Shown here: piece after piece, positions 38,531 through 47,097 of the stretch
How the letters are laid out: each line of letters starts with the position of its first letter
How positions within the stretch are numbered: position 1 is the stretch's first letter
DNA from: Verrucomicrobiia bacterium
GTDB taxonomy: Bacteria; Verrucomicrobiota; Verrucomicrobiia; Limisphaerales; Fontisphaeraceae
DNA: 64,000 bases
Reading direction: 5' to 3'
Assembly (NCBI GenBank): GCA_026414565.1
Contig: JAOAIT010000015.1
Coordinates: 1 to 64,000 of the forward strand
Program-made: the position numbers and the translations under genes
The notes under the pieces: model-generated
The model's database searches: none
Seen by the model: the letters and a program-made list of their open reading frames with translations, nothing else
Told to the model about the DNA's origin: nothing

Positions 38531-38637
38531 AGTTTTGGCAGATTTTGATAGATATTGATAGAACTCGATTTTATTTGCAAGATTTTATTTGACATTTTTG
38601 CCAGTTTTTGGTTTTTTCGACTCAAACATTTGTTTTT
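38531..38637. promoter_or_regulatory. divergent deoR / BMC promoter with direct repeats
   Basis: This 107-base AT-rich spacer holds two tandem 10-bp units, GATTTTGATA and GATATTGATA (38541-38560). It also holds two copies of GATTTTATTTG (38567-38577 and 38581-38591) with a 14-base period. A TTGACA (38589-38594) could be a -35 element for the BMC operon, although no clean -10 is seen at the expected distance. The repeats are candidate DeoR operators. The assignment is inference. Confidence 0.55.
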
Positions 38638-39315
38638 ATGGCTGTTACCGCACCCGGAGTTCATCGGGCCGAAGTCGAACATTTGGTTCGGCAGGCGGTG
38701 TATCAACGCTTGGGGTTGCCCCTGCCCAAGGCGGCGCGGGCGCCCAATCCGCTGGTGGTGAATGTGAGTGCGCGGCATTGTCATTTGACGCAGGAGGCGG
38801 TGGAGGCGTTGTTTGGGAAAGGCCACAAGCTGCAGGTGTACAAGTGGCTGTATCAGGAGGGACAATTTGCGGCGAAGGAGACGGTGACGTTGATTGGGCC
38901 GCGGAGCCGGGTGATATCCAACCTGCGGATCCTGGGGCCGTGCCGGAATTTGAATCAGGTGGAGCTGGCGTACACGGACGGGATTGCGCTGGGGTTTGAT
39001 CTGCCCTTGCGGCTGTCGGGGGACATCAAAGGCACGCCGGGGGCGATGCTGATGGGGCCGGCCGGATTTTTTGAGATGAAGGAGGGGGTAATCCGGGCCT
39101 TGCGGCATGTGCACATGCATCCGGATGACGCGGCGTTTTATGGGGTGAAACAGGGCGACTGGATGAAGTTGCGGATAGGGGGGCCGTGCGCGGTGACGCT
39201 GGAGAAGCTGCTGTGCCGGGTGGATCCGAGCTTCAAACTGGAGGTGCACATTGACACCGATGAAGGCAACGCCTGCGATTTGCAGGCGGACACCCCGTGC
39301 GAGCTCATCAAATGA
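38638..39315 (+). CDS. pduL: PduL-type phosphotransacylase of the microcompartment
   Basis: 225 residues from the ATG at 38638. It has the PduL core: the zinc-ligand segments 'VVNVSARHCHLTQEAVEALF' and 'ALRHVHMHPDDAAFYGVKQG', and between them 'GQFAAKETVTLIGPRSRV', 'ILGPCRNLNQVELAYTDGIA' and 'LSGDIKGTPGAMLMGPAG'. PduL converts acyl-CoA to acyl phosphate, here probably lactyl-CoA to lactyl-phosphate, and recycles CoA inside the shell. Residues ~8-24 ('RAEVEHLVRQAVYQRLG') are an amphipathic helix linked by a Pro-rich spacer, the pattern of a BMC encapsulation peptide. It is the first gene of the BMC operon, divergent from deoR. Confidence 0.93.
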   Translation: MAVTAPGVHRAEVEHLVRQAVYQRLGLPLPKAARAPNPLVVNVSARHCHLTQEAVEALFGKGHKLQVYKWLYQEGQFAAKETVTLIGPRSRVISNLRILGPCRNLNQVELAYTDGIALGFDLPLRLSGDIKGTPGAMLMGPAGFFEMKEGVIRALRHVHMHPDDAAFYGVKQGDWMKLRIGGPCAVTLEKLLCRVDPSFKLEVHIDTDEGNACDLQADTPCELIK

Positions 39316-39376
39316 TTGGCAACGAGGCGCGGGACAGGATTTTTAACCCAATTCAAAAGCAACCCAAAGGAAACCT

Positions 39377-39667
39377 ATGAGTGAAGCACTCGGCATGATC
39401 GAAACCAAGGGCTACGTGGGCGCGGTGGAGGCCAGCGATGCGATGGTCAAGGCCGCCAATGTGACCCTGGTCAAAACCATCCCCATCGGCGGCGGCATGA
39501 TCACGGTGTTGTGCCGCGGCGATGTGGGCAGTGTCAAAGCCGCCGTGGACGCCGGCGCGAAGGCCGCGGGGAAGGTGGGGGAGCTGATCAGCTCCCACAT
39601 TCTGGCGCGGCCGCACGAGGATTTGGTGAAAACCTTCATTGGCGAACCGGCCAAAGGCGGCAAATAA
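39377..39667 (+). CDS. BMC-H microcompartment shell protein 1
   Basis: A 96-residue single BMC domain: '[20 protein letters not shown]', '[20 protein letters not shown]', '[20 protein letters not shown]' and '[12 protein letters not shown]'. These proteins form cyclic hexamers that tile the flat shell facets, with the central pore lined by the loop IGGGM. A good AAAGGA ribosome-binding site precedes the ATG. It has a Cys next to the RGDV segment. It is one of three BMC-H genes in this operon, and differs from the other two mainly in the pore loop and C-terminus. Confidence 0.95.
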
Positions 39668-39703
39668 CCCTGAAGCGAGAACCTTTTTTACCTGAATTGA
39701 GTT

Positions 39704-39982
39704 ATGGCACAACAAGCGATTGGCATGATTGAAACCAAGGGGCTGTGCGCCCTGTTGGAAGCCTGCGACGCCGGCCTGAAGGCCGCCAACGTGCAGTTGG
39801 TGGGCTGGGAAAAGATCGGCAGCGGATATGTGACCGGCTTTTTCCGCGGGGATGTGGCGGCGGTGAAAGCGGCCACGGATGCCGGCGCGGCGGCGGCGGC
39901 CCAGGTGGGCCAGGTGATTGCCGTGCAGGTGATTCCGCGTCCGCACGAGGGGCTGTCCGGGCTGGGCAAATGGCTCCAGTAA
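39704..39982 (+). CDS. BMC-H microcompartment shell protein 2
   Basis: A 92-residue BMC-H protein with the canonical pore sequence KIGSGYVT and the signature '[20 protein letters not shown]', closest of the three to PduA/EutM. It lies 36 bases after BMC-H 1. The C-terminus is short ('[14 protein letters not shown]'). Cysteines in '[11 protein letters not shown]' are not conserved in the neighbours. Its hexamer presumably provides the small-molecule pore for the sugar-phosphate substrate or lactate product. That role is inferred from PduA. Confidence 0.95.
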
Positions 39983-40039
39983 AGTAATTGCGTGGTGCAG
40001 GCGCCCCTGCCCTGCCGGGCCGGGGTGCGTGGAGAGGCC

Positions 40040-41230
40040 ATGAAAATCCTGGTTGCCAATATCGGCTCCACGTCGCTCAAGTGGCGGTTGTATTACTTTG
40101 CCGGGGAGCAGGAGCAGATGTTGCACAAGGGCGGGCTGGAGCGGGTGACGGATTATCCGCAGGCCATCCGCACGTGTTTGGAGCAGCTCCGGGAGGCCGG
40201 GCACATTCAGCAGGCATCGGACCTGGCGGCGGTGGGGTTCAAGACGGTGATGGCGCGGGGCATTACCGGCTGCGTGCGGCTGGAGGAGCGGGTGCTGGCG
40301 GCGATGGAGGCGTTCAACGGCCTTGCGCCGGCGCATAATCCGCCCTACATCACGGGCATCCGGCTGTTTGCGCAGGAAATGCCCGGGGTGCCGCTGGTGG
40401 GGCTGTTTGAGACGGCGTTCTACCAATGGGCGTCGCCGGCCGCGCAGCGGTATGCGGTGCCGGAATCGTGGTATGAGCTGGGGGTGCGGCGCTACGGTTT
40501 TCATGGGGCGAGCCACAAATACATTGCGGAGCGGTCGGCGGAATTGTTGGGACGGGAGGACGTGGCGCGGCGGGTGCGGCAGCTTTATGTGGATGGCGGC
40601 ACGACGCCGGTGCGGGCGCCGGCGCTGCGGGTGATTTCGTGTCATTTGGGCGGCAGCTCCTCCATTACGGGCCTGCGGGACGGGGTGGCGGTGGGCAACA
40701 GCCTGGGGATGAGTCCGCAGTCGGGTCTGCCGCACAACAACCGGGTGGGGGATTTGGACGCCTTTGCGCTGCCGTATGTGCTGCGGCAGACGGGGATGAC
40801 GCTAGAGGAGGCGGAGCGCCAGCTTTGCAAGGAATCCGGGCTGAAGGCCCTGTCCGGAGGTTACAATGACATGCGGGACATCACGGCGCGGGCGCAGCAG
40901 GGGGAGGCGCGGGCGCAGTTGGCGCTGGATCATTTTGTGCATGCGATCCGGCACTGGATAGGGGCGTTTCTGGTGGAGCTGAACGGGGCCGAGGCGCTGG
41001 TGTTCACCGCCGGGATTGGGGAGAACGACTTTGGGTTGCGGGCGGCGGTGTGCCGGGGGCTGGAGGGTTTGGGGTTGGAGCTGGATGCGGCGCTGAACCG
41101 GGAGACGCGGGGGCGGGAGGCGGTGATCAGCACGGCGTCTTCGCGGGTGAAGGTGATGGTGATTCCCACGAATGAGGAGCTGGTGGTGGCGCGGGAAACG
41201 CGGCGGCTGCTGGAGGCGGAGAAGATTTGA
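40040..41230 (+). CDS. ackA: divergent acetate kinase-like acyl kinase of the microcompartment operon
   Basis: 396 residues from the ATG at 40040. It has the acetokinase fold and motifs: 'KILVANIGSTSLKWRLYY', 'LAPAHNPPYITGI', 'YGFHGASHKYIAERSAELLG' (His155, the active-site His180 of Methanosarcina AckA) and 'VFTAGIGENDFGLRAAV'. Two catalytic positions differ: the Arg91 equivalent is K68 (VGFKTVMARG instead of the usual VGHRVVHGG), and the Asp148 equivalent is E124 (LFETAFYQ instead of VFDTAFHQ). Here it would turn acyl phosphate (acetyl- or lactyl-phosphate) into the acid plus ATP, completing the PduL pathway. The stop codon's last base is the first base of the terminal inverted repeat of the downstream cassette. 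Confidence 0.88.
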   Translation: MKILVANIGSTSLKWRLYYFAGEQEQMLHKGGLERVTDYPQAIRTCLEQLREAGHIQQASDLAAVGFKTVMARGITGCVRLEERVLAAMEAFNGLAPAHNPPYITGIRLFAQEMPGVPLVGLFETAFYQWASPAAQRYAVPESWYELGVRRYGFHGASHKYIAERSAELLGREDVARRVRQLYVDGGTTPVRAPALRVISCHLGGSSSITGLRDGVAVGNSLGMSPQSGLPHNNRVGDLDAFALPYVLRQTGMTLEEAERQLCKESGLKALSGGYNDMRDITARAQQGEARAQLALDHFVHAIRHWIGAFLVELNGAEALVFTAGIGENDFGLRAAVCRGLEGLGLELDAALNRETRGREAVISTASSRVKVMVIPTNEELVVARETRRLLEAEKI

Positions 41231-41258
41231 ACCACGAATAGACACGAAGAAACACGAA
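41230..41258. repeat. left terminal inverted repeat of the GxxExxY cassette
   Basis: Starts AACCACGAAT at the third base of the ackA stop codon and continues with further CACGAA units. Twenty-four of 29 bases match the reverse complement of 41685-41713. Confidence 0.7.
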
Positions 41259-41279
41259 TCAACCCCATCATTGATCAAC

Positions 41280-41657
41280 ATGAACGCCCCTGCCATCGCA
41301 CTGAAAGAAGAAGTCTTCCACATTGTGGGAGCGGCGATGGAGGTGTTGAATTCACTGGGACATGGTTTTGCCGAGAAACTTTACGAGAATGCTCTGGTGG
41401 TGGAATTCCAGCTCCGTGGGATTCCGCATCAACAACAACCGCGGTTTGAACTGTTTCACAAGGGCGTTTTGATTGGTCAGTTCATTCCCGATTTAGTTGC
41501 CTACTCGCAGATTGTGGTGGAAATCAAAGTGGTGGATCAAATCACCGATCACGAGCGTGGCCAGTTGCTCAACTACCTCAAAATCACCCGGTGCAAAGTG
41601 GGCGTGCTGCTCAATTTCAAGCGCGCCAAACTGGAATGGGAAAGGCTGGTCCTGTGA
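41280..41657 (+). CDS. GxxExxY family protein
   Basis: 125 residues from the ATG at 41280, with the family signature GFAEKLYENAL (G-x-x-E-x-x-Y) early and 'LVAYSQIVVEIKVVDQITDH' followed by 'QLLNYLKITRCKVGVLLNF', a PD-(D/E)xK nuclease-like core (E in VVEIKVV). The family is widespread and often present in many copies per genome. Its function is unknown, with a nuclease or mobile-element role suspected. The gene is flanked by inverted repeats inside the microcompartment operon. Base composition is visibly more AT-rich than in the BMC genes on either side, which supports insertion. Confidence 0.88.
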   Translation: MNAPAIALKEEVFHIVGAAMEVLNSLGHGFAEKLYENALVVEFQLRGIPHQQQPRFELFHKGVLIGQFIPDLVAYSQIVVEIKVVDQITDHERGQLLNYLKITRCKVGVLLNFKRAKLEWERLVL

Positions 41658-41684
41658 ACCCAAGACATCTTCCCCATGCAAGCT

Positions 41685-41713
41685 TTCGTGTTCATTGGTG
41701 TGCATTCGTGGTT
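41685..41713. repeat. right terminal inverted repeat of the GxxExxY cassette
   Basis: Ends CATTCGTGGTT, the reverse complement of the left arm start. The next BMC-H gene begins 23 bases beyond it. Confidence 0.7.
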
Positions 41714-41735
41714 AACCTAAAAACTCATTAAATCT

Positions 41736-42020
41736 ATGCCTCAAGCGATTGGAATGATTGAGACGCGCGGCCTGGTCGCCCTGGTGGAAGGGACCGACGC
41801 CATGCTGAAGGCCGCCAACGTGGAACTCGCCGGCCCGATGACCCAGGTGGGCAACGCGCTGGTGACCGCCGTGGTGGTGGGCGATGTGGCCGCCGTCAAG
41901 GCGGCAACCGACGCCGGCGCGCAGGCCATCAAGGCGATCAAGGGCGAGCTGGTGAGCGTGCATGTGATCGCCCGGCCGCATCCGGATGTGGAGGCGGTGC
42001 TGCCCAAGAAGGCCAAGTAA
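41736..42020 (+). CDS. BMC-H microcompartment shell protein 3
   Basis: A 94-residue BMC-H protein ('IGMIETRGLVALVEGTDAML', '[20 protein letters not shown]', 'VHVIARPHPDVEAV'). The pore loop reads QVGNALVT rather than the KIGSG(L/Y) of the other canonical copy, so the tight second glycine is lost, and the Arg before GDV is Val. It starts 23 bases after the right end of the GxxExxY cassette. The altered pore suggests selectivity different from BMC-H 1 and 2. That is inference from sequence only. Confidence 0.95.
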   Translation: MPQAIGMIETRGLVALVEGTDAMLKAANVELAGPMTQVGNALVTAVVVGDVAAVKAATDAGAQAIKAIKGELVSVHVIARPHPDVEAVLPKKAK

Positions 42021-42107
42021 CCCGCGCCGGGCCGGGCCGTGCGGGCGTCTCCGGGGACGGAGCACGCCGGGTGCGGTTTTGGCCCGCCGCCAGCCCGGAG
42101 GTCAACC

Positions 42108-42428
42108 ATGTTTCTGGCACGGGTGGAAGGTGCGGTGGTGTCCACCAAAAAGGATCCCAGCATGAGCGGGCGGAAGCTGCTGCTGCTGCGGCCGCAGTTG
42201 GTGGACGAGAAGGATCCCACCAAATTCCGCAACGGCGCCAACACCATTGTGGCGGTGGACAGCGTGGGGGCGGGCGAGGGTGAGCTGGTGCTGTTCTGCC
42301 AGGGGAGCTCGGCCCGGCTGGCGCCCAACCTGAAGGATGCGCCGGTGGATGCGGTGGTGATTGGGATTGTGGACACGGTGGATGTCTTCGGCAAACAGAT
42401 CTACAACGCGCGCAACGCGGGCAGCTAA
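42108..42428 (+). CDS. BMC-P (EutN/CcmL) pentameric shell protein 1
   Basis: A 106-residue EutN/CcmL-fold protein, from the ATG at 42108: 'MFLARVEGAVVSTKKDPSMS', 'GRKLLLLRPQLVDE', 'VAVDSVGAGEGELVLFCQGS' and the C-terminal 'VIGIVDTVDV'. Pentamers of these proteins cap the vertices of the icosahedral shell. It is the longest of the three BMC-P proteins and the most canonical, with the G-A-G-x-G-E loop typical of CcmL. Confidence 0.94.
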   Translation: MFLARVEGAVVSTKKDPSMSGRKLLLLRPQLVDEKDPTKFRNGANTIVAVDSVGAGEGELVLFCQGSSARLAPNLKDAPVDAVVIGIVDTVDVFGKQIYNARNAGS

Positions 42429-42481
42429 GGAGGGACGAGTCGGCCCCTCCCCTGCCCGGCTGCACAACCTAACGAAGCCTT

Positions 42482-44008
42482 ATGAGTGCGCCAGTGAATG
42501 AAGCCTTGATTCGCGAGGTGGTGGCCGAAGTGCTCGGCCGTCTGAATCGGACCGCAACGCCGGCGCCGCCGGCACCGGCCGCGCCGGCGGGCGCGTCCGC
42601 AGCAGCCGCGCCATCCGCCAGCAGCGCCGGGGCGGTCAATCTGGTCATCAAGACGGCGGAGCGGACCCCTTTGCGGGGGACGTTTGGCGTGTTTCAGGAT
42701 GCCCGGCAGGCCTGCGAGGCGGCCCACGAGGCCTATCTGCAGCTCAGCGCCAAGGGGGTGGCGGGCCGGCAGAAGGTGGTGCAACTGGTCAAGGATATAT
42801 GCAATCAGAACGCGGCCGAGTGGGGGTTTATCGAGCTGCAGGAGACGAAGATTGGGCGGCTGGATCACAAGATCGAGAAGCTCAAGGGGCTGCGCGCCGT
42901 GCCGGGGGTGGAGTTTCTCGCGCCGCTGGGTTTCAGCGGGGATCACGGCATTTCGTTGGAGGAATACGCGCCGTTTGGCGTGATTGGGGCGGTGACGCCG
43001 TCCACGCACAGCATTCCCACGATGGCCTGCAACGTCATCAGCATGGCGGCGGCGGGCAATGCGGCGGTGTTTAACGCGCATCCCAGCGCGGTCAAATGCG
43101 CGGTGATGGCGGCGCGGGTGTTGAACGAGGCGATTTATCGCGAGCTGGGCATAGAAAACCTGGCGTGCATCGTGGAGAAGCCCACGCTGGAGTCCTTCCA
43201 GGCCATTGCGTCGCATGAGCTGGTGAAGCTGTTGTGTGTCACCGGCGGGCCGGGCGTGGTCAAAGCGGCGATGCAGACGGGCAAACGGGCGATTTGCGCC
43301 GGGCCGGGCAATCCGCCGGTGCTGGTGGACGGGACGTCCTGTCTGGAGCGGGCCGCGCAGCATGTGGTCTATGGGGCCGCGTATGACAACAATCTGCTGT
43401 GCATCGGGGAGAAGGAGGTATTCGTGCTGGCGCCGTTCTTTGACCGGTTCATGGCGGCGCTGGAGAAGGCCGGGGCGGTGCGTTTGAATGAGGCGCAGGT
43501 GGAGCGGCTGACGAAGGCGGCGTTCACCCTTCCCGGACAGGGGGCGGGCTGCGGGCATCCGGTGTTGAGCCGCGAGCTGGTGGGCAAGGATCCCGAGGTG
43601 CTGGCGCAGGTGGCCGGGGTGAGCATTCCCAAGGGCACGCAACTTTTGTTTGCCGAGACGGCGCCGGATCATCTGTTTGTGATAGAGGAGCAGATGATGC
43701 CGTTTCTGCCGGTGGTGCGGGTCAACACGGTGGAGGAAGGGATCGAGCTATCCAAGAAAGCGGAGCGGGGTTACAAGCACTCGGCGATGATTCATTCGCA
43801 TGATGTGGCGCACATGACGGCCATGGCGCGGGCGCTGGAGACGACGTTGTTTGTGAAGAACGGCTCCTGTCTGGCCGGGTTGGGGGCGGGCGGCGAGGGT
43901 TATCCCAACTTCAGCATTGCCACCACCACCGGGGAGGGCATCTGCAATCCGCGCACCTTCACGCGGGTGCGGCGATGCGTGATGGTGGACAAGCTGCGGA
44001 TTTTCTGA
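42482..44008 (+). CDS. CoA-acylating aldehyde dehydrogenase of the microcompartment (PduP/EutE-like)
   Basis: A 508-residue enzyme. The catalytic cysteine is C307 in YDNNLLCIGEKEVF, preceded by 'KRAICAGPGNPPVLVDG' and 'GVIGAVTPSTHSIPTMACN', which are diagnostic of CoA-acylating aldehyde dehydrogenases in BMCs. It oxidises an aldehyde (lactaldehyde in PVM-type BMCs) to acyl-CoA with NAD+. Residues 4-21 (VNEALIREVVAEVLGRLN) are an amphipathic helix followed by an Ala/Pro linker to ~50, the encapsulation-peptide pattern that targets enzymes to the shell lumen. It is flanked by BMC-P genes. Confidence 0.94.
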   Translation: MSAPVNEALIREVVAEVLGRLNRTATPAPPAPAAPAGASAAAAPSASSAGAVNLVIKTAERTPLRGTFGVFQDARQACEAAHEAYLQLSAKGVAGRQKVVQLVKDICNQNAAEWGFIELQETKIGRLDHKIEKLKGLRAVPGVEFLAPLGFSGDHGISLEEYAPFGVIGAVTPSTHSIPTMACNVISMAAAGNAAVFNAHPSAVKCAVMAARVLNEAIYRELGIENLACIVEKPTLESFQAIASHELVKLLCVTGGPGVVKAAMQTGKRAICAGPGNPPVLVDGTSCLERAAQHVVYGAAYDNNLLCIGEKEVFVLAPFFDRFMAALEKAGAVRLNEAQVERLTKAAFTLPGQGAGCGHPVLSRELVGKDPEVLAQVAGVSIPKGTQLLFAETAPDHLFVIEEQMMPFLPVVRVNTVEEGIELSKKAERGYKHSAMIHSHDVAHMTAMARALETTLFVKNGSCLAGLGAGGEGYPNFSIATTTGEGICNPRTFTRVRRCVMVDKLRIF

Positions 44009-44142
44009 AGAACCATGCCCAGAAAGCCCATGAGCGAGACACCCCCAAAATATGCCAACCGGCGCGGCCCCGTCCCGGCGGGCGGCGCCGGCCGCGCGGG
44101 CGGGGTGGGAGCGGGGGCCGGCCCGGTTTGGGGAATTGTGCC

Positions 44143-44421
44143 ATGCTGCTAGCCCGCATTGAAGGCAGTGTGATTGCCGTGCGCAAGCACCCCAGTTTTG
44201 AGGGGTGGCGGCTGCTGATTTGCCAGCCGATCAATGAGCGGGGGGAGCCGGAGGGGGTGCCGCAAATTGCGCTGGATCCGTGGGGGGCGGGCATGCACCA
44301 GCGCGTGATCATCTCCTCCGATGGCGCCGCCGCCCGGGTGGCGGTGGGGGACGAGAACAGCCCCGCCCGCTGGATGATTGTGGGCATTGTGGATGAGCCG
44401 GAAAGGACGGGCCACGCATGA
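44143..44421 (+). CDS. BMC-P (EutN/CcmL) pentameric shell protein 2
   Basis: A 92-residue EutN-type protein from the ATG at 44143: 'MLLARIEGSVIAVRKHPSFE', 'GWRLLICQPINERGEPEG', 'LDPWGAGMHQRVIISSDGAA' and 'MIVGIVDEPER'. It follows the aldehyde dehydrogenase after a 134-base GC-rich spacer and overlaps the next BMC-P start as ATGA (44418-44421). A longer frame from 43975 has no shell homology in its extension and was not used. Vertex-capping is the expected role. Confidence 0.93.
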   Translation: MLLARIEGSVIAVRKHPSFEGWRLLICQPINERGEPEGVPQIALDPWGAGMHQRVIISSDGAAARVAVGDENSPARWMIVGIVDEPERTGHA

Positions 44422-44741
44422 GACTGGGACGAGTCATTGGACGGGTCACGTTGAGCCAGGCGGTGCCCAGCCTCACCGGTGCGCGCTGGCTGATTGTAAG
44501 TCCGCTGGGGCGCGAGCAGTACCGGCAGGGCCTCGAAGGGGAGGCGACATTGAGCCGGGAGCCCAGCCTGGTGGCGTATGATGCGCTGGGGGGCGGCGTG
44601 GGACAGGTCATCGGGTTTGTGGAGGGCCGGGAGGCGGCAGTGCCTTTTGAGCAACCCACGCCCATTGACGCGATCTGCACCGCGCTGGTGGATCAGATGT
44701 TTTATCACCCGGCCGAAACGCCGGCCCAACCCAAAGCCTGA
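44418..44741 (+). CDS. BMC-P (EutN/CcmL) pentameric shell protein 3
   Basis: A 107-residue, more divergent EutN-fold protein: 'MRLGRVIGRVTLSQAVPSLT', 'GARWLIVSPLGREQYRQGLE', 'LVAYDALGGGVGQVIGFVEG' and a C-terminal extension 'AICTALVDQMFYHPAETPAQ'. The extension beyond the usual fold is particular to this copy and could mediate contacts at vertices. It is coupled upstream by ATGA overlap, and its stop TGA shares bases with a possible aldolase ATG at 44741. Confidence 0.9.
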   Translation: MRLGRVIGRVTLSQAVPSLTGARWLIVSPLGREQYRQGLEGEATLSREPSLVAYDALGGGVGQVIGFVEGREAAVPFEQPTPIDAICTALVDQMFYHPAETPAQPKA

Positions 44742-44758
44742 TGCAAAGGCAGGATTTT

Positions 44759-45820
44759 ATGAAAAATGTAATCAGCGTCCGTGATTTGGAAGAGATGCTG
44801 CGGCGCGGGCAGGATGTCACCCAACTGCCCGCCGACGCCATTTTGACGCCTTCGGCGCGGGATTTTCTGCGCGATTTGGAGGACAACGGCGGCCTGCGGA
44901 AGGCGGCCGCCAGCAGCAGCGGCGGCAGCGCGCGGGCGGCGGCCCCGGCCAAACCGCCCACGTCCAAAAGCCCCAAGGCCGAGCTGGAGGCCTTTTTCAA
45001 CTCGCCCGCCATTCACGAGTTGAAGGAGAAAATCTGTGACATTGGCCGGCGCATGTGGCAGCGGAATTACGTAGATGGCAACGGGGGCAACATTGCCATC
45101 CGCGTGGGCGAGGACATTGTGCTGTGCACGCCCACCCTTGTTTCCAAGGGGTTTATGAAGCCCGCGGACATTTGTCTGGTGGATTTGGAGGGCCATCAAC
45201 TGCTGGGGGAGAAGAAGCGGACGAGCGAGATTTTGATGCACCTGCAAATCATGAAACGGCAGCCGCGGGCGGTGGCCACGGTGCATTGCCATCCGCCCGC
45301 CGCCACGGCATTTGCCGTGGCCAACCTGTCGCCGCCCACGTGCATGATTCCGGAAATCGAGGTGATGATCGGGACGGTGCCGGTGGCGGAATACCGCACG
45401 CCGGGCACGCCGGAGATGGGCAAGCTGGTGGCGGATCTGGTGGAGCAGCACAACACCATATTGATGGGCAACCATGGGGCGGTATCCTGGAGCCATGTGG
45501 ATGTGGAGGACGCGTATTTCAAGATGGAAATCCTGGAGGCCTATTGCAACACCATCGTGATTGGCACGCATCTGGGGGTGCCGCTGAAGACGTTTGAGCC
45601 GAAGTACCTGCAGGACATTTTGAAGATCAAGTCCACCCTGGGGATCCCGGATGCGCGCGCGGGGCTGAAGGAGTGCGAGTTGTGCGACAACAGCGAGTGG
45701 CGGCCGGGGGTGACCTGCATGGTGCCGCCCAAGGCGGCCGCGGCGGGCCCCGCGCCGGATCCGCAGGCCGAGGCGCTGGTGCAGGCCATCACGGATCAAA
45801 TCATGAGCCAGTTGCAATGA
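44759..45820 (+). CDS. class II aldolase of the microcompartment (fuculose/rhamnulose-1-phosphate aldolase-like)
   Basis: 353 residues from the ATG at 44759, which has a spaced AGGA upstream. The ATG at 44741 is the alternative. The aldolase core lies in residues ~75-325 with the class II active site: E157 in TSEILMHLQ (FucA Glu73), zinc histidines H176 and H178 in VATVHCHPPAA, and H239 in LMGNHGAVSW. Residues 1-45 ('MKNVISVRDLEEMLRRGQDV', then 'LPADAILTPSARDFLRDL') form a BMC-type targeting segment followed by a linker. The C-terminal helix 'DPQAEALVQAITDQIMSQLQ' also looks like one. It would split a 6-deoxyketose-1-phosphate into DHAP and L-lactaldehyde. Confidence 0.92.
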   Translation: MKNVISVRDLEEMLRRGQDVTQLPADAILTPSARDFLRDLEDNGGLRKAAASSSGGSARAAAPAKPPTSKSPKAELEAFFNSPAIHELKEKICDIGRRMWQRNYVDGNGGNIAIRVGEDIVLCTPTLVSKGFMKPADICLVDLEGHQLLGEKKRTSEILMHLQIMKRQPRAVATVHCHPPAATAFAVANLSPPTCMIPEIEVMIGTVPVAEYRTPGTPEMGKLVADLVEQHNTILMGNHGAVSWSHVDVEDAYFKMEILEAYCNTIVIGTHLGVPLKTFEPKYLQDILKIKSTLGIPDARAGLKECELCDNSEWRPGVTCMVPPKAAAAGPAPDPQAEALVQAITDQIMSQLQ

Positions 45821-47097
45821 TGCGCTCGCTCGACGCCAAACTGGCAGAGATCAAGGCCAACCCGCGCTCGCGGGCGTTCATTTTGGCGGACGCCAAGGAT
45901 GCCGACATGGCCTTTGGGGTGCGCGCGCCGGGGCCGCGGTATTATTTGTCGGCGCGCGGGGAGCGGCCGGCGCGCTTCTCGCCGGAGGTGTGGACGCGGG
46001 AGGAGTTTGGGTATCGGAATCTGCCCGAGTTTCTGGATGTCATCCGCGAGGTGGTGGCGCAGGGGGTGGTGGACATCATGTTGATGAGCGCCTATGTGAA
46101 CGAGCAGCTCACGATCAAGGAGGGACTTTTCAAAGACTCGAGCGTGACGCCCGCGGCGCGGGCCAACGACACCACGGACATCTGGGTGGTGCGGCACGGT
46201 TGTTACACGCGGGAGCCGGCCCAGCCGTTTCGCAGCGCCACCATTGATCATATCCAGTGCGGCCGGATTGAGTGCGCGCGGGACGGGACGGCGGAGTTTC
46301 CCGGCGCCAATCTGGGGTTGTATTCGCTGACGTTTGTGAACCAGTTGGAGCAGGATCGGGAAACGCTGATGTGCTTCAAGGCCTTTCGCGAGGAAGCCGA
46401 GCGCAAAAAGTTTCGCTATTTTCTGGAGGTCTTTGATCCCAACGTGCCCAGCGGGATTCCGCCGGAAAAGCTGGGCGAATTTATCAATGACCAGATTTTA
46501 CGGACGCTGGCGGGGGTGACGGAGGCGGGGCGGCCGCTGTTCCTGAAAATTGTGTATCACGGGCCGCGGGCTTTGGAGGAGCTGGCGCAGTATGATCCCA
46601 ATCTGGTGATCGGCATCCTGGGCGGCGGCGCGGGGACCACCTACGACGCCTTCAAGCTGATCCACGACGCCCAGAAATACGGGGCGCGCGTGGCGTTGTT
46701 CGGGCGCAAAATCAACCATGCCGAGCATCAACTGGCCTTCATTGAGATGCTGCGGTTGATTACCGACGGGCGGATTTCGCCGGAGGAGGCGGTGCGCGCC
46801 TATCACGGCGTGTTGCAGGCCAAGGGCATCAAGCCGCGGCTGCCGCTGGAGAAAGATTTGGAGCTGACGGATCAAAGCATGCAGTACGACGGGACCGCCG
46901 CCCGGCGGGCCACCGTCCACGTGCAGAACAATCCGCTGGCCGGAGGCAGCACGGCGGCGGCCCCGCCTGCGCCGGTCTCCGGGGAGAAGGCCGCGGCGTG
47001 GCCCACCTTCCCCAACGGCGCGCCGAACTTTGAAGCGATGACGGCGGCGCAACGGCGGGCGTATCATCAATGGCGGCTGACGCGGCGGTTTGGCTGA
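45817..47097 (+). CDS. uncharacterised TIM-barrel-like protein of the microcompartment operon
   Basis: A 426-residue protein coupled to the aldolase by an ATGA overlap (ATG at 45817; a second ATG at 45820 is equally possible). Residues ~15-350 alternate beta and alpha segments. They end in 'PNLVIGILGGGAGTTYDAFK' and 'LIHDAQKYGARVALFGRKI', a glycine-rich phosphate-binding pattern like that of LacD/DhnA-type barrel aldolases. K244 in RPLFLKIVYHG is a candidate Schiff-base lysine. Residues 367-393 are an Ala/Pro/Gly-rich linker, then a basic amphipathic tail (394-426) that could be an encapsulation peptide. I know of no assigned activity. It is the last gene of the operon, three bases from a convergent gene. 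Confidence 0.7.
   Translation: MMRSLDAKLAEIKANPRSRAFILADAKDADMAFGVRAPGPRYYLSARGERPARFSPEVWTREEFGYRNLPEFLDVIREVVAQGVVDIMLMSAYVNEQLTIKEGLFKDSSVTPAARANDTTDIWVVRHGCYTREPAQPFRSATIDHIQCGRIECARDGTAEFPGANLGLYSLTFVNQLEQDRETLMCFKAFREEAERKKFRYFLEVFDPNVPSGIPPEKLGEFINDQILRTLAGVTEAGRPLFLKIVYHGPRALEELAQYDPNLVIGILGGGAGTTYDAFKLIHDAQKYGARVALFGRKINHAEHQLAFIEMLRLITDGRISPEEAVRAYHGVLQAKGIKPRLPLEKDLELTDQSMQYDGTAARRATVHVQNNPLAGGSTAAAPPAPVSGEKAAAWPTFPNGAPNFEAMTAAQRRAYHQWRLTRRFG

Follow-up and report, generated by a model that had tools for sequence, protein, structure and literature searches.

Background

How does a small gene enclosed by inverted repeats come to lie in the middle of a metabolic operon, and does the gene have a part in its own placement? 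This question is raised by a stretch of 64,000 nucleotides from a Verrucomicrobiia bacterium (contig JAOAIT010000015.1; hereafter the window), in which a unit of ~480 bases occupies the spacer between ackA and the gene of the shell protein BMC-H3 in a microcompartment operon. The gene in the unit belongs to the GxxExxY family, for which we know of no established function; in the literature searched, from which subscription papers were mostly missing, neither a mobile-element role nor flanking repeats were found described for it. As the family is widespread and often multicopy in the phylum, tying it to arrays of its own would give it a job that can be tested. In this paper, we describe the unit in the window, survey its counterparts in related genomes, and weigh the explanations that have been considered for its presence.

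The cassette and its place in the host operon

The host microcompartment operon (38608..47097, + strand) encodes PduL, three BMC-H proteins, ackA, EutN, ALDH, EutN2/3, an aldolase and one further gene. Its named relatives are mostly from Verrucomicrobiota (Limisphaera, Pedosphaera and others), which makes it very probable that the window comes from that phylum too. The acetate kinase gene ackA (39992..41230, + strand; PF00871) is the upstream neighbour of the cassette, and the BMC-H3 gene (41736..42020, + strand; PF00936) is the downstream one. Between them are found a left terminal array of three ~10-bp CACGAA units (41230..41258, + strand), the GxxExxY gene of 125 aa (41280..41657, + strand), and a right terminal array that is an inverted copy of the left one (41685..41713, - strand). 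The two 29-nt arms are 83% complementary (24/29) and stand 426 nt apart; each is built of three roughly 10-bp direct units (ACCACGAATNN), which are inverted between the two ends, and the outer end of the arms extends as TT(T/G)A(A/G)CC. An earlier note on this DNA had described such imperfect arms around one GxxExxY gene, with the first base of the left repeat coinciding with the final base of the ackA stop codon and BMC-H3 starting 23 bases past the right repeat. Its coordinates hold: the first base of the left arm is the A of the ackA TGA, the start of BMC-H3 is the 23rd base past the right arm, and the gene is matched by TIGR04256 and PF13366. GxxExxY is the sole gene within the cassette, and there is no transposase gene there. 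A consensus scan found neither a promoter nor a terminator inside the cassette, and a search of Rfam with the cassette and with four array loci gave no matches up to an E-value of 0.1.

The cassette is a genuine insertion that broke no gene, as the note had also claimed. The C-terminus of ackA appears intact when aligned with those of relatives, and the ackA-BMC-H3 spacer measures 30-272 bp in 73 of the 74 named relatives in which ackA is followed by BMC-H3; the one exception (L218:4458-5150, G048) holds a carbonic-anhydrase-like open frame and no cassette. A GxxExxY gene is absent from this spacer in every other genome examined, so that it is not fixed there in distant operons. In G001, a genome of the same genus, the spacer instead carries a TIGR02436 four-helix-bundle gene (S23/IVS-like, a relative of PDB 2rld) between inverted CAAAATNNN-type arrays of its own, and in G148 CACGAA units without a gene stand immediately 3' of ackA. 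Across genomes, at least six spacers of the microcompartment operon are occupied by GxxExxY or four-helix-bundle cassettes, with three cassettes in a single operon at L219, and four CACGAAT cassettes of this operon begin exactly at a natural TGA. We do not claim the operon as a favoured target, since several of the loci had been fetched by way of it.

Arrays of the same kind are also found elsewhere in the source genome, where the two-unit pattern CACGAANNNNCACGAA has 17 copies versus none for the reversed control pattern. As that genome contains only one GxxExxY gene, its remaining arrays are gene-less. All 17 matches are on the + strand of the contig concerned (C7, C15, C28, C37, C48 and C51 of G000), the gene-less ones are unpaired, and contig C48 has an array cluster spanning ~230 bp.

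The GxxExxY protein

The product of the cassette gene is a full-length member of its family, scoring 126.5 bits against TIGR04256 (cut-off 35) over profile positions 3-116 of 116, and 121.8 bits against PF13366 (PDDEXK_3). Its AlphaFold2 model has a pLDDT of 91.7, and the best Foldseek matches of the model are SSO0001 of Sulfolobus, which we take to be the Cas4 of that organism, and lambda exonuclease (E-values of 4.8e-4 for 4ic1 and 7.4e-4 for the exonuclease). The putative active site (E30, Y33, D69, K81 and Q93xxxY97) is kept in 53-61 of 61 proteins, and dN/dS values of 0.05-0.12, where dS is not saturated, indicate purifying selection. The protein therefore models as an active-looking PD-(D/E)XK nuclease of the Cas4/lambda-exonuclease type, which agrees with the nuclease-like core that the earlier note had given for GxxExxY proteins. 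Profile matches to Cas4 and RecE are weak; membership in a known defence system was considered and dropped, as there were just the weak Cas4 matches, and so was carriage by phages, for which there was one viral match.

Generality of the layout

A survey of the order, covering 58 genomes, yielded 78 GxxExxY genes and 70 four-helix-bundle genes, whose flanks were scored for inverted similarity with a threshold of 14, using 438 ORFs away from cassettes as controls. The threshold was reached by 61 of the 78 GxxExxY genes (78%) and 48 of the 70 four-helix-bundle genes, versus 12 of the 438 control ORFs (2.7%), the median scores being 20.2 and 17.9 for the two families and 8.8 for shuffled pairings. 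The 95% null level for inverted flanks was also exceeded at 19 of 29 loci sampled across the phylum, and GxxExxY is carried by 69 of 145 genomes of the phylum, in at most 12 copies each. The suggestion of the earlier note that the CACGAA units represent a recognised sequence rather than chance is borne out by these counts together with those of the source genome, in which the arms do recur.

The design of the arms depends on the gene family. GxxExxY arms show their repeat period as a peak at lags 8-11, and their outer ends read TT(T/G)A(A/G)CC(A/G)C on both sides; four-helix-bundle arms have a 7-bp period, with an identity of 0.60 at lag 7 (0.55 at lag 14). No direct repeat that could represent a target-site duplication clearly exceeded shuffled pairing in 34 cassettes. 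The candidate TGA...TGA, promising in three cassettes of the microcompartment operon, was gone over the 34, and we rejected it because the shared letters are part of the symmetric outer end.

With neighbour strands assigned from the longest ORF, the upstream neighbour is co-oriented with the cassette gene at a ratio of 44:15 for GxxExxY (p 2e-4) and 39:8 for the four-helix-bundle family (p 6e-6), and the distances from stop codon to arm peak at zero. Short spacers together with selection could yield part of this pattern, and the exact abutment on stop codons may in part reflect short spacers, such as the ~5 bp between cimA and valS in G012, rather than a choice of target. That similar units occur throughout the phylum, repeatedly just 3' of gene ends, suggests, as far as sequence comparison goes, an undescribed low-copy mobile element.

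Several further arrangements were seen. GxxExxY cassettes occur in tandem or partial tandem at L089 (G001), L096 (G053) and L097 (G030), a 562-bp period being present three times in G001. In the same complete genome, the CACGAAT arrays at L307-L314 form one end of a ~356-bp unit that is both tandem and dispersed. CACGAAT arrays are abundant in G018, yet none of its examined GxxExxY cassettes has CACGAAT arms, which counts against the mechanism proposed below.

Arms and gene as one unit

Cassettes with more similar proteins tend to have more similar arms (Mantel rho 0.17 and 0.23, both p 0.001), with a mean arm similarity of 0.52 above 60% protein identity versus 0.23 at low identity. Where alike cassettes occupy unlike sites, the homology of the clearest pairs ends within ~10 nt of the arm ends: at 0/1 and 1/0 nt in L146/L140, and at -5/-9 and 5/9 in L048/L170. 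In other alike pairs it breaks off inside the arms, and many alike pairs share one site in both genomes. By these comparisons, mobility as a unit is well supported.

As for the tempo of this mobility, pairs above 60% protein identity make up 2.7% of those within a genome versus 2.9% of those between genomes; copies in one genome are no more alike than copies in different ones, and we accordingly rejected multiplication within genomes. In most GxxExxY pairs, substitutions at synonymous sites have reached or nearly reached saturation, which, together with the lack of a within-genome excess, indicates that movement is rare or old. For the same reason, recent horizontal transfer, which high protein identity had seemed to imply, was dropped. 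That arms remain alike despite such saturation suggests that the arms are themselves under selection.

Turnover at one site is best seen in the cimA-valS spacer of genus g43. Depending on the genome, the occupant belongs to one of at least three unrelated GxxExxY lineages or is a gene-less hairpin of the same design, and the two arms match in each. A single lineage with CGCGAATT arms is present in G187, G254, G270 and G260, another with CACGAATTT arms in G043, and a third, ~30% identical to the others, in G264 and, decayed, in G266. The GxxExxY protein of G043 is nearer to that of G019, a genome from a different family (0.75), than to that of G187 (0.68), although the cimA genes of G043 and G187 are 92% identical. 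In further species of the genus the spacer is filled by gene-less CACAGAT, CACAGAG or GCAAAG hairpins, the folding z-scores of which range from -4.8 to -11.6. To account for these differences at a single spot, insertion or exchange must have happened more than once, or the two arms must have changed in concert.

Gene-less pairs were also found in G018, G004, G034 and G022, as triple-decamer ends around 20-180 bp of unrelated sequence; as a master-copy MITE would have a common interior, these pairs are unlike one. At L300 (G018:C168), an inverted array pair of the CGCGAATT type is nested within a pair of the CACGAAT type.

Proposed mechanism and alternative explanations

Overall, the interpretation of the earlier note is supported, and on balance we consider it somewhat probable that we are dealing with a compact mobile cassette of one gene that resembles REPIN/RAYT, with an unrelated nuclease in the place of the RAYT. 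We infer GxxExxY to be the mover of the cassette. The nuclease would recognise its own arrays by the hairpin or duplex that they form in single-stranded or cruciform DNA, and would cut at the outer TTDA/RCC edge; by copying or exchange, the unit might then reach short operon spacers, at a low rate, and gene-less array pairs could be moved in trans. The correlation between arms and protein and the family-specific period both favour the view, put forward in the note, that GxxExxY may move or maintain its own repeats. On the other hand, cassettes of the four-helix-bundle family have this layout with no nuclease gene, hence the architecture does not require one; together with the absence of any recent multiplication, this tempers the case for GxxExxY as its own mover. 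Either each protein acts on its own array type through a separate mechanism, or both kinds of cassette are moved by a step that they have in common and that the host provides. The absence of bursts within genomes and of a target-site duplication argues against a fast transposon.

An alternative is that the unit is an RNA element like the intervening sequences (IVS) of 23S rRNA, whose arms pair as RNA into a stem that RNase III excises or processes, so that insertion does no harm; a host or trans factor would spread it, and the gene would be a passenger comparable to the S23 gene. The model for this is the Coxiella IVS, a 428-nt element with an S23 gene and a 28-bp terminal stem that is cut by RNase III (PMC4990558). 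The four-helix-bundle cassettes, with their TIGR02436 relatives of 2rld, have the same layout, RNA folding predicts that ~23 of the 29 arm pairs form in the window cassette, and all 14 of the counted cassettes in the microcompartment operon are in sense. However, selection for an RNA stem should leave an excess of G-U among arm mismatches, and we rejected it because none was found for GxxExxY (G-U 61 vs A-C 52, p 0.45). The arms of the 70 four-helix-bundle cassettes, read in sense orientation, show the reverse of an RNA stem (A-C 83 vs G-U 40). The missing G-U signature argues against a pure RNA element; moreover, a passenger gene does not explain why the repeat period varies with the gene family, and the nuclease site is conserved. 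We therefore regard this explanation as unlikely.

It is also conceivable, though in our view doubtful, that resident array pairs serve as landing sites where homologous or host recombination trades one cassette for another, as in integron or defence-gene hotspots, while GxxExxY has a role in the cell, for instance in DNA repair or defence. The repeated re-occupation of one site, the gene-less arrays at that same cimA-valS site, the purifying selection, the lack of bursts and the weak Cas4 and RecE matches would all fit such an exchange, but the arms of successive occupants differ, leaving little homology for recombination, and new sites become occupied as well. An ancient resident inherited with the operon is very improbable: some cassettes are old at their site, such as the four-helix-bundle one found between ALDH and EutN2 in several genomes, but the GxxExxY gene between ackA and BMC-H3 is in no other examined genome, and the same-genus genome holds a different cassette. 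That dispersed repeats merely fell on either side of an ordinary small gene, for which one might cite the common gene-less copies in several genomes, is the least credible explanation, being already refuted by the control counts (78% vs 2.7%) and by the match of arms to protein lineage.

Returning to the mobile-cassette reading, its widest form is offered only tentatively. The units might represent a new class of element, in which a lone Cas4-like nuclease, unaided by a transposase or recombinase, would recognise periodic terminal arrays, place the unit behind operon stop codons and mobilise gene-less pairs in trans; the four-helix-bundle family with its 7-bp arrays would do likewise, and the rRNA intervening sequences would be relatives dwelling in rRNA.

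Comparison with known systems

The cassettes share inverted ends, a small unit and gene-less derivatives with insertion sequences and MITEs, but have neither a transposase nor a target-site duplication. The TAACTGA heptamers of Beggiatoaceae and Cyanobacteria are, like the four-helix-bundle arms, intergenic 7-bp direct repeats; they have been put forward as candidate regulatory sequences, nearly always in direct orientation and with no linked gene family (PMC4679880). The link to cassettes may point to one origin of the ~10-bp and 7-bp repeats that abound between genes in the genomes studied here.

The 23S rRNA IVS, whose origin is described as unclear (PMC4990558), resemble the cassettes in their length of 400-500 nt, their one small gene and their terminal inverted repeats of ~28 bp, and are the closest analogue of the sister family with its S23-like four-helix-bundle gene. 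The window cassette differs from them in lying in an mRNA operon spacer (ackA/BMC-H3), in carrying a nuclease gene and in lacking a G-U signature. The same layout around an S23-like gene would tie the rRNA intervening sequences to a wider group of cassettes found in ordinary operons.

The closest analogue of the window cassette is REPIN/RAYT. Such systems consist of REP doublets that form hairpins and of a REP-associated tyrosine transposase (PMC3116915). In both these systems and the cassettes, a gene lies between inverted copies of an extragenic repeat, the repeat type is matched to the protein lineage, and gene-less inverted doublets with predicted hairpins occur at extragenic sites. However, the cassette gene is a PDDEXK_3 member, i.e. 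a PD-(D/E)XK nuclease, and no RAYT (HUH/TnpA-REP); its repeats are direct arrays of ~10-bp units, whereas REPs are palindromes; and the gene-less cassette forms have unrelated interiors, with no proliferation of near-identical copies seen. As the layout is common to both but the defining protein differs, the cassette appears to work like a REPIN/RAYT system without being a member of that group.
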